Source: Planctomycetota bacterium
GTDB taxonomy: Bacteria > Planctomycetota > Phycisphaerae > UBA1845 > UTPLA1
NCBI GenBank assembly: GCA_003576905.1
Contig: QEVG01000026.1
Span: 1 to 64,000, forward strand
DNA length: 64,000 nt
Direction: 5' to 3'
Positions 1 to 2,950 of the stretch are shown here, one piece after another. Position numbers and translations under genes: made by a program. Positions within the stretch are counted from its first letter, which is position 1. Each line of letters starts with the position of its first letter. Below the pieces are notes generated by a model. The model searched no databases. It was not told the DNA's origin and saw only the letters and a program-made list of their open reading frames with translations.

Positions 1-488
<488 letters not shown>

Positions 489-826
489 ACATTTACCAAT
501 CGCTGCCAGGCCTGCGGCATCCCGGCGCCCGGAATGAACCGGACGGCGAAGTGCCTTGACCATGACATCAACCGGAAAACGTGACAAGTGTCGCCGTCGG
601 CGCTCCATCCACGTCGATCCGCCGCCGCGGCCTCACGGCCGTTTCGGCAAATCCCTGGATGAAGACTCTTGGAAGATCTCATGATGAGATCGTCACATTC
701 CCCAATCTATTCAGTTGTCAAAGAGCACGGCAAACCGGGCCTTTTCAGGGCCGCAGTCTTCCGTTGAAAGTTCGCCGTTTACCGCGGAAAACACTCAACG
801 GAAAACTGTCCGCCGGTCATACTGAC
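489..826 (-). other. tRNA-Ala to 23S rRNA internal spacer
   Basis: This 338-base stretch separates tRNA-Ala from the 23S 5' end within the rRNA transcript. It should hold the processing stem that RNase III cuts around pre-23S, but I did not draw a full pairing. It carries a boxA-like element at 716-727. Open frames here are spurious because the region is a transcribed rRNA spacer. Confidence 0.8.
716..727 (-). promoter_or_regulatory. boxA antitermination element upstream of 23S
   Basis: The minus strand reads TGCTCTTTGACA, one base different from the bacterial boxA consensus TGCTCTTTAACA, about 230 nt before the 23S 5' end. In known rRNA operons boxA loads the NusB-S10 antitermination complex and is also found in the 16S-23S spacer. 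The match is seen; function is inferred. Confidence 0.75.
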
Positions 827-899
827 TGGAGCCGACCGGGATCGAACCGGCAACCCCTAGCTTGCAAAGCTAGTGCTCTCCCAATTGAGCTACGGCCCC
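827..899 (-). tRNA. tRNA-Ala (anticodon TGC)
   Basis: On the minus strand a full cloverleaf is readable. The acceptor stem GGGGCCG pairs with CGGCTCC and includes the G3-U70 pair that marks alanine tRNAs. The D arm is GCTCAATTGGGAGAGC, the anticodon stem CTAGC/GCTAG with loop TTTGCAA, and the T arm carries GGTTCGATCCC. The discriminator base is A and CCA is not encoded. It lies between tRNA-Ile and 23S, the usual order inside a 16S-23S spacer. Confidence 0.97.
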
Positions 900-1135: not shown

Positions 1136-1209
1136 TGGGCCCGAGTGGACTCGAACCACTGGCCTCGTCCTTATCAGGGACGCGCTCTAACCAACTGAGC
1201 TACGAGCCC
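1136..1209 (-). tRNA. tRNA-Ile (anticodon GAT)
   Basis: The minus strand folds with acceptor stem GGGCTCG/CGGGCCC, D arm GCTCAGTTGGTTAGAGC, anticodon stem CGTCC/GGACG with loop CTGATAA (anticodon GAT), and T arm GGTTCGAGTCC. The discriminator is A and CCA is not encoded. It is the first mature RNA of this operon: no 16S rRNA precedes it, and the promoter at 1439-1466 lies ~230 nt upstream. Confidence 0.97.
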
Positions 1210-1265
1210 TACTCTGGCCAAACTTCTCAAAAAGCCTCGCCCCGGCATCGCGGAAAAATGGGGCG

Positions 1266-1295
1266 AAAAAAACCACCGGCGATTGCCGGTGGTTT
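1266..1295 (-). terminator. Intrinsic terminator inside the rRNA leader
   Basis: On the minus strand ACCACCGGC pairs perfectly with GCCGGTGGT around an AATC loop, flanked by further A-T pairs and followed by a run of seven T. It sits after the likely rRNA promoter (1439-1466) and before tRNA-Ile (1209). It would therefore stop rRNA transcription unless read through, which suggests attenuation or antitermination. On the plus strand the T-run is only three, so the minus-strand reading is better. Confidence 0.8.
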
Positions 1296-1438
1296 GTCGG
1301 TGAACCGATGAACCATCCGTCAGCAATCACGCCGAGGGATCGTATGCAACCGTGCAAGTCCGATGAATCAAACGAGGCCTTTCGGTATCGTTACGCGACC
1401 ATTCGATCGCTGACCGCTTCCTCAACTTGCAGCACAGT

Positions 1439-1466
1439 AATGTAGCAGGGCATGCCGTCCTGTCAA
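1439..1466 (-). promoter_or_regulatory. Sigma-70 type promoter of the tRNA-Ile/tRNA-Ala/23S operon
   Basis: The minus strand shows TTGACA (1466-1461), a 16-base spacer, then TACATT (1444-1439). The start site should fall near 1432. The -35 is perfect and the -10 has four of six consensus bases. It faces the tRNA-Ile gene with no gene between, so this looks like the operon's own promoter. Confidence 0.75.
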
Positions 1467-1748: not shown

Positions 1749-1922
1749 ATGCGAAAGACGAAGGATATCAAGCGCAAACGAAAACAGGCGGGCCTCGAAT
1801 TCAAGAAGGGCAATACCGCCGAGGCCTACAAGATGTGGAGCGAGGCGAAAAAGGAACTCGACGAACTGCGCGGCCGGAACAAGCCTGCCGCGGCGAAGCC
1901 CGGCGAGCCGGCGGCCGGTTGA
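1749..1922 (+). CDS. Small basic hypothetical protein (57 aa)
   Basis: Not recognised. A 57-residue frame starts at ATG 1749 behind a clear AGGAG site nine bases upstream and stops at 1920-1922. The N-terminus is very rich in Lys and Arg (MRKTKDIKRKRKQAGL). A short amphipathic stretch with EAYKMWSEAKKELDEL follows, then an Ala/Pro-rich tail. There is no signal peptide or membrane segment. It lies directly upstream of pyrF, whose start is 98 bases beyond its stop, so the two are probably co-transcribed. The charge pattern suits nucleic-acid or ribosome binding, but that is only inference. Confidence 0.65.
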   Translation: MRKTKDIKRKRKQAGLEFKKGNTAEAYKMWSEAKKELDELRGRNKPAAAKPGEPAAG

Positions 1923-2020
1923 CACGCCCCTGCGCCCGCGGCGATGGTGACATTTGTGCGGCACTTCGCCGACCGGAGCGATCTGCACGGCGCGGCTGCG
2001 CCGTTTCGGAGAATGGACGC

Positions 2021-2950
2021 GTGGCGGAGCATTTCGCCGATAGGCTCATTTCGGCCGTTTTGGCTCGAGGGGCGCCGTGCGCAGTGGCGCTCGATCCGGT
2101 CTATTCGAGCCTGCCGGCGGAGTTGACCTCGCGCGTCGGCAAGACGGCTCCTGTCGCGGCCGAGCTCTCGGCGATTCTGGAATTCAGCCGGCGTGTCCTG
2201 CGCGTGATCGTGTCTCATGTTCCCGTTGTTAAGATCAACTCCGCCTATTTCGAGCGATATCACGCCGACGGCGTTTCGGCGCTCGACGAGTTGATCGCCG
2301 AAGCCCGGCGCCTGGGACTGTTGGTCCTGGCCGATGTAAAACGCGGGGATGTCGGACACACGGCGGAAATGTACGCCGACGCGTGCCTTGGCTGGGCGAA
2401 GGGGGGCGAGGTTTTTCAGACGGCCGACGCGGTGACGATTAGCGGCTATTTCGGTCGGGACGGGGCTGCGCCGTTCATTGAGTCCGCAAAGCGATCGGGC
2501 AAGGGCGTGTTTGTCCTTGTTCGGACTTCTAATCCATCTGCGGCGCACATCCAGGATGTGCAGGCATTGGACGGTCGAAAAGTGCATGAGATTGTGGCCG
2601 CACAGGTCGCCCAGTGGGCGGACGCCGACGATGCCATAGGGAAATGCGGCTATTCGCTCGTCGGTGCTGTCGTCGCTACGCGCAATGCCGCAGACGCCCG
2701 GCGGCTTCGGGAGATCATGCCGAGATCCATCTTCCTCGTGCCCGGTTACGGCGCGCAGGGCGGACGGCCGGAGGATTTCCAGCCGTATTTCTGCCGTTCA
2801 GGCGGTGGCGCGCTGGTCGTGGCGGGACGCTCGGTGATCTTCGCACACTCCGCGCCTGCCTATCGCGACGAATCTGGAAATTCCTGGGAGGAGTGCGTCG
2901 AGCGGGCATGCCGCGATTTTGTCGCAGATATCTGCCGCGTAGCGGTATAG
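2021..2950 (+). CDS. pyrF: Orotidine 5'-phosphate decarboxylase (type 2 family)
   Basis: PyrF catalyses the last step of de novo UMP synthesis, decarboxylating OMP to UMP in the cytoplasm. The chosen start is GTG 2021, with GGAGA eight bases upstream, giving 309 residues. The catalytic signature DVKRGD is at residues 105-110, preceded by a beta strand ending in VVKIN (69-73) and followed by HTAEMYA. A late phosphate-binding segment carries VPGYGAQGG. The length (~300, not ~240) and motif context fit the longer OMPDC subfamily 2. pyrE for the preceding step is at 60224-60751, well away from this gene. Confidence 0.93.
   Translation: MAEHFADRLISAVLARGAPCAVALDPVYSSLPAELTSRVGKTAPVAAELSAILEFSRRVLRVIVSHVPVVKINSAYFERYHADGVSALDELIAEARRLGLLVLADVKRGDVGHTAEMYADACLGWAKGGEVFQTADAVTISGYFGRDGAAPFIESAKRSGKGVFVLVRTSNPSAAHIQDVQALDGRKVHEIVAAQVAQWADADDAIGKCGYSLVGAVVATRNAADARRLREIMPRSIFLVPGYGAQGGRPEDFQPYFCRSGGGALVVAGRSVIFAHSAPAYRDESGNSWEECVERACRDFVADICRVAV

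Follow-up and report, generated by a model that had tools for sequence, protein, structure and literature searches.

A candidate translation-coupled attenuator of a 23S rRNA operon in Planctomycetota

How is 23S rRNA made when a predicted intrinsic terminator lies between its promoter and the genes to be transcribed? The question is raised by the window, the stretch of 64,000 nucleotides analysed here, which is the first part of a contig from a Planctomycetota assembly of 4.7 Mb. All features of the operon are on the minus strand and are listed below in the direction of transcription.

1439–1466, minus strand: promoter TTGACA-16-TACATT, then ACTGTGCTGC; rRNA-type, the sole strong promoter-like site of the tRNA-Ile/tRNA-Ala/23S operon
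1266–1431, minus strand: leader and predicted attenuated transcript, ~166 nt from the predicted start; 156–174 nt in 15 family genomes
1378–1382, minus strand: Shine-Dalgarno-like (SD) AAAGG; the energy of pairing with the anti-SD barely reaches the threshold in this leader and is stronger in most relatives
1327–1371, minus strand: mini-ORF MIHRTCTVAYDPSA, an open frame of 14 codons with TTG start and TGA stop, between promoter and terminator
1296–1326, minus strand: stop-to-terminator segment, a candidate antiterminator able to pair with the terminator 5′ arm (moderate support)
1270–1295, minus strand: terminator stem-loop AAACCACCGGC-AATC-GCCGGTGGTTT, from sequence and conservation
1266–1272, minus strand: terminator T7 tract, six T of which are invariant in 15/15 family genomes
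1223–1236, minus strand: boxA-like GGCTTTTTGAGAAG, 3′ of the terminator; within the family, clearly significant in this genome only
1136–1209, minus strand: tRNA-Ile (GAU)
827–899, minus strand: tRNA-Ala (UGC)
714–727, minus strand: boxA TGCTCTTTGACAAC before 23S; match in 15/15 family genomes
1–488, minus strand: 5′ part of 23S rRNA; the contig ends inside the gene

No 16S gene was found upstream of these genes or in the whole assembly, and one 16S match lies elsewhere in most sister genomes. Because 16S is absent upstream, the operon consists of tRNA-Ile, tRNA-Ala and 23S and is unlinked from 16S. All nine of the family genomes tested, of which two are single contigs, have one 23S 5′ end each. 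An Rfam search returned only tRNA and LSU rRNA above the gathering score, with no T-box, riboswitch, 6S or known sRNA. A plus-strand ORF of the window (1835–2950) carries a DVKRGDVG motif and may encode an orotidine 5′-phosphate decarboxylase. Families are labelled f1, f2 and so on after the search tool, f1 being the family of the window; 15 of its 17 genomes gave a readable leader, with 13 distinct leaders among them. The family belongs to a group of uncultured Planctomycetota of the class Phycisphaerae. The analysis is computational throughout; the genomes compared are mostly metagenome-assembled, and the family members share ancestry and are therefore not independent.

A terminator behind the only strong promoter

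The preliminary description of this locus had placed a perfect nine-pair stem with seven T about 140 bases past the start and before the first tRNA. This description holds. The stem has 11 perfect pairs if all A-U pairs are counted and nine without the outer two, is G+C-rich, and lies ~137 nt past the predicted start, ahead of tRNA-Ile, tRNA-Ala and 23S. Conservation of the stem and T run in relatives had been proposed as a check, and the stem core is indeed invariant in 15/15 family genomes, with wobble and one compensated pair, as are the six T. A generic terminator sequence repeated across the genome was ruled out, since the assembly of 4.7 Mb contains the stem-plus-T pattern a single time. 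With a strict hairpin detector 6 of the 13 distinct family leaders were positive versus 0 in shuffled upstream regions, and a looser detector found the terminator in 13 of the 15 family leaders. The terminator is the only conserved RNA fold in these leaders. Judged by sequence, a real and conserved intrinsic terminator in the leader of the 23S operon is confirmed.

The promoter is equally constant, with an invariant −35 hexamer, a 16-bp spacer and a score of 10/12 in all 15 family genomes; the transcription start, at ~1431, is predicted from its position. In 14 of the 15 genomes no promoter site scoring at least 9/12 occurs from the terminator to the 23S region, and a weak 9/12 site (1093–1066, minus strand) occurs only in the window's genome. 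The distance from the end of the T run to tRNA-Ile is 56 nt in the window and 35–174 nt across the family. The shortest gaps, 35 nt in G005 and ~28 nt in the f2 genomes G182 and G189, are too short for a separate promoter. With one 23S 5′ end per genome and no strong promoter downstream, the only 23S copy seems to lie behind the terminator. These observations, together with the conservation of the hairpin, support the earlier proposal of an attenuator in an rRNA leader.

The order of promoter, leader, terminator and tRNA-Ile is identical in all 15 readable family genomes. Elsewhere in the class, some members of about eight further families share this architecture, namely of f2, f4, f11, f14 (one genome), f18, f20, f22 and f26, the fit of the f14, f18, f20 and f22 leaders being poorer. 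A leader terminator was not seen in f5, in families with a solitary tRNA-Ile under a close promoter of its own (f7, f8, f10, f19, f21, f23), or where 16S, tRNAs and 23S are linked (f6, f9, f15), and the architecture was not seen in other classes of the phylum at up to 16 loci examined. Two of eight matches to the promoter pattern fell outside the group; they lay in apparently coding DNA without tRNAs and were taken as chance.

Variant layouts were also observed. In f17 (L165, L166, L167) a promoter, a short ORF (2/3) and a terminator precede a separate second 23S promoter, so that the layout is the same and the wiring different. In G187 and G188 of f2 (L209, L210) a terminator hairpin and T run end ~14 nt before tRNA-Ile and ~62 nt past the predicted start, and tRNA-Ala was not found downstream of tRNA-Ile in the stretch read. 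Upstream of tRNA-Ile in f18 and f22 (L117–L123), a hairpin and T run are followed directly by boxA TTTTTGTTGCTCTTT; two tandem promoters lie upstream, and the stop of the upstream ORF (uORF) may overlap the second −35.

A short open reading frame in the leader

The mini-ORF at 1371–1327, absent from the preliminary description, reads TTG ATT CAT CGG ACT TGC ACG GTT GCA TAC GAT CCC TCG GCG TGA. Relatives would encode the peptides MNRRTGDTRANRSA, MIRKTCKVALNRSA, MLTQRTGRVTFSSA, MLTRRIGNSARLTA, MERKLENLAQESTA and others. The frames have 9–15 codons, often 14, and stop ~32 nt ahead of the terminator, the position of whose stem tracks the stop. An ORF was scored if it had an ATG, GTG, TTG or CTG start, an SD energy of −3.5 or lower, 9–15 codons and a stop 26–41 nt before the terminator arm; for other families the codon number, distance and SD strength were unchanged and the start position was left free.

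By this rule an ORF is present in 13/13 distinct family leaders, compared with a mean of 0.63 and a maximum of 4 over 1000 dinucleotide shuffles, and in 0 of their reverse complements. The criteria were fixed after viewing f1, and the independent tests are therefore confined to the held-out families and f5. Held-out leaders of f2, f4, f11, f14 and f26 have the ORF in 10 of 12 cases (shuffled mean 0.95, maximum 5), those of f17 in 2 of 3 (null 0.16), and those of f18, f20 and f22 in 5 of 11 (null 0.71, maximum 4), most f18 leaders failing the rule. The exceptions include G157, which fits at relaxed distance only, and G156, which has no ORF. In the sister family f5, where the promoter is present and the terminator absent, 1 of 12 leaders has an ORF, at the chance level of 1.2, versus 13/13 in f1 by the same rule. 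The ORF and the terminator are thus present or absent together.

The leader interior is otherwise poorly conserved; its few invariant or near-invariant columns coincide mostly with the SD, the NTG start and the final codons. Among 24 leaders the start codon is TTG in 17, CTG in 4 and ATG in 3, and the C-terminal residue is A, G, S or T in 18, against a background of 30% (p 8e-6). No run of control codons is shared by the peptides of these 24 leaders, and their sequences are otherwise unlike. Codon-position G+C gave no coding signature in the mini-ORFs, which at 282 codons in all is weak either way. Since the peptides are dissimilar and lack a codon run, the function of the mini-ORF likely rests on the act of translation and not on its product.

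Attenuation and its alternatives

How translation could reach the terminator is suggested by folding. When the leader is folded up to the terminator loop, the main pairing partner of the 5′ arm is the segment that follows the stop codon, and freeing the arm costs 5.9 kcal/mol versus 4.6 kcal/mol with that segment shuffled (Stouffer z 3.7, 24 leaders). Although the arm is sequestered above the shuffled level, the pairing partners are not uniform among leaders. The higher cost is moderately consistent with a post-stop segment selected as an antiterminator, of which G031 has an example of eight pairs. Scored by the duplex alone, the family gives a weak combined z of −2.2. A modelled ribosome at the stop codon sharply lowers the cost of freeing the arm in G186, G031, G022, G177 and G008, and does not free the terminator in G013, G009 and G182; the effect over all leaders is not significant (paired p 0.30).

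We propose, with a probability of roughly 0.6, that the leader of this single-copy tRNA-Ile/tRNA-Ala/23S rRNA operon is a translation-coupled transcription attenuator. RNA polymerase would either stop at the terminator, releasing an RNA of ~165 nt, or continue into the tRNA and 23S genes, in a ratio set by translation of the mini-ORF. When ribosomes are plentiful, a ribosome would reach the stop codon and mask the following segment, so that the terminator forms. If no ribosome initiates at the weak start codon, the post-stop segment would pair with the 5′ arm of the terminator and allow read-through. The result would be a direct negative feedback of translation capacity on 23S synthesis. The direction, from translation to termination, is the least certain step and our preferred guess; it is because the modelled ribosome has no significant effect over all leaders that the direction is held at this strength and the proposal as a whole no higher. 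The mostly non-ATG starts would fit a sensor of initiation capacity. More tentatively, a leader peptide with a weak start may report free translation capacity and set read-through into the sole 23S gene, possibly balancing it with the separately transcribed 16S.

Read-through could instead depend on Nus factors acting at a boxA in the leader, as the preliminary description had suggested. A boxA matrix was built from 16S, 23S and related leaders. Since boxA is found before both 16S and 23S, the Nus machinery is probably present. Yet no significant boxA lies between the start and the terminator in any of the 15 family genomes, all of which match before 23S, and canonical boxA/Nus antitermination therefore does not explain the read-through. 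Where a leader boxA exists (f18, f20, f22, f11 and the window's genome) it sits 3′ of the terminator, and we know of no accepted mechanism by which a boxA so placed can act on that terminator. This version is hardly credible. The adjoining hairpin and boxA of f18, f20 and f22 invite another interpretation, in which the hairpin serves as a boxB-like or processing element and its T run is incidental; we consider it very unlikely, as six T are invariant throughout the family while a clear boxA follows the hairpin in 1 of 15 genomes, and the stem position tracks the ORF stop.

The conserved strong promoter and the terminator at constant spacing could also define a promoter-proximal small RNA of ~165 nt, perhaps with a peptide and with its own leaky terminator, the rRNA being made by unregulated read-through; the similar unit that precedes a separate 23S promoter in f17 would be such an independent transcription unit. 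A separate small RNA had been raised before, and termination may yield one as a by-product, but what is conserved in the leader is an ORF and not an RNA structure beyond the terminator. In addition, the peptides are not conserved, ORF and terminator are jointly absent in f5, and a strong terminator ahead of the only 23S gene would be costly unless regulated. An unregulated small RNA gene is thus an unlikely account, if a serious one. If the rRNA were made from a second, non-consensus promoter between the terminator and tRNA-Ile or in the spacers, the terminator would serve to insulate the upstream unit. Separate downstream promoters occur in f17, in f26 (G177, by eye) and in f11 (between tRNA-Ala and 23S), but the lack of a 9/12 site in 14 of the 15 family genomes and the little room left by the 35-nt gap in G005 and the ~28-nt gaps in two f2 genomes make this explanation improbable.

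The 16S leaders have a promoter and boxA, with no terminator after that promoter, and the same attenuator element before 16S was rejected on this ground. In five family genomes (L036, L038, L040, L032, L035) a second conserved transcription unit of ~125–135 nt, with no Rfam match, was observed within ~600 nt upstream of 16S and just before the 16S promoter. It starts from a promoter of its own, GCTATATT, and pairing of its two ends before the T run is possible (GTCCGG...CTGGCTCCGGTTTTTTT). In this unit, as in most family leaders, GTCG(CC) usually comes after the T run.

It has long been asked how bacteria adjust rRNA synthesis to their translation capacity, and the usual models of rRNA control act on initiation via ppGpp and nucleotides. 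If translation-coupled attenuation holds, a leader peptide gating the elongation of rRNA transcription would be a second and direct route of control, and bacteria with unlinked 16S and 23S genes would have a means to keep both in step. Short ORFs ahead of stable RNA genes are not routinely sought.

Comparison with known systems

The preliminary description knew of no standard rRNA leader with such an element, which was too strong a statement. The leader of E. coli rrnB contains a structure, tL, with reported in vitro pausing and attenuation (PMC3639268, refs 30-31: Kingston and Chamberlin 1981; Zacharias and Wagner 1987), and rRNA leaders with a terminator-like element are therefore not unprecedented. 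Like the present hairpin, tL is a terminator-like structure between the rRNA promoter and the first gene; no translated ORF is described for it in the text consulted (PMC3639268), whereas a mini-ORF is present here. The E. coli leader also has boxA-type antitermination signals, unlike the present leader, where none precede the terminator. With the boxB-boxA-boxC antitermination leaders of rRNA operons (PMC4807359) the operon shares an rRNA leader and a boxA at 23S, but boxA is absent upstream of the terminator.

Regulatory uORFs linked to expression or to premature termination are known from toiL-topAI (PMC12121999) and mdtU (PMC7815308). There, as proposed here, the translation state of a short uORF controls the downstream genes. 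Those systems, however, act on mRNAs via Rho-dependent termination or translational control, whereas an intrinsic terminator and stable RNA genes are concerned here. The literature searched yielded no earlier case of an rRNA operon with a translated leader. As far as that literature goes, the new part would be the translated ORF in an rRNA leader, the control of mRNAs by uORFs being already known.

The trp and his operons of E. coli are biosynthetic operons with ribosome-mediated leader-peptide attenuators. The present leader differs from them in that tRNA and 23S rRNA genes would be controlled instead of enzymes and in its mostly TTG or CTG starts, and from their amino-acid-sensing subgroup in having no run of control codons. 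Without claiming membership of the trp/his type, we suggest that the 23S leader may work like a leader-peptide attenuator, as it shares with trp and his a short ORF with an SD, a stop shortly before an intrinsic terminator, an attenuated transcript of similar length and a candidate antiterminator.
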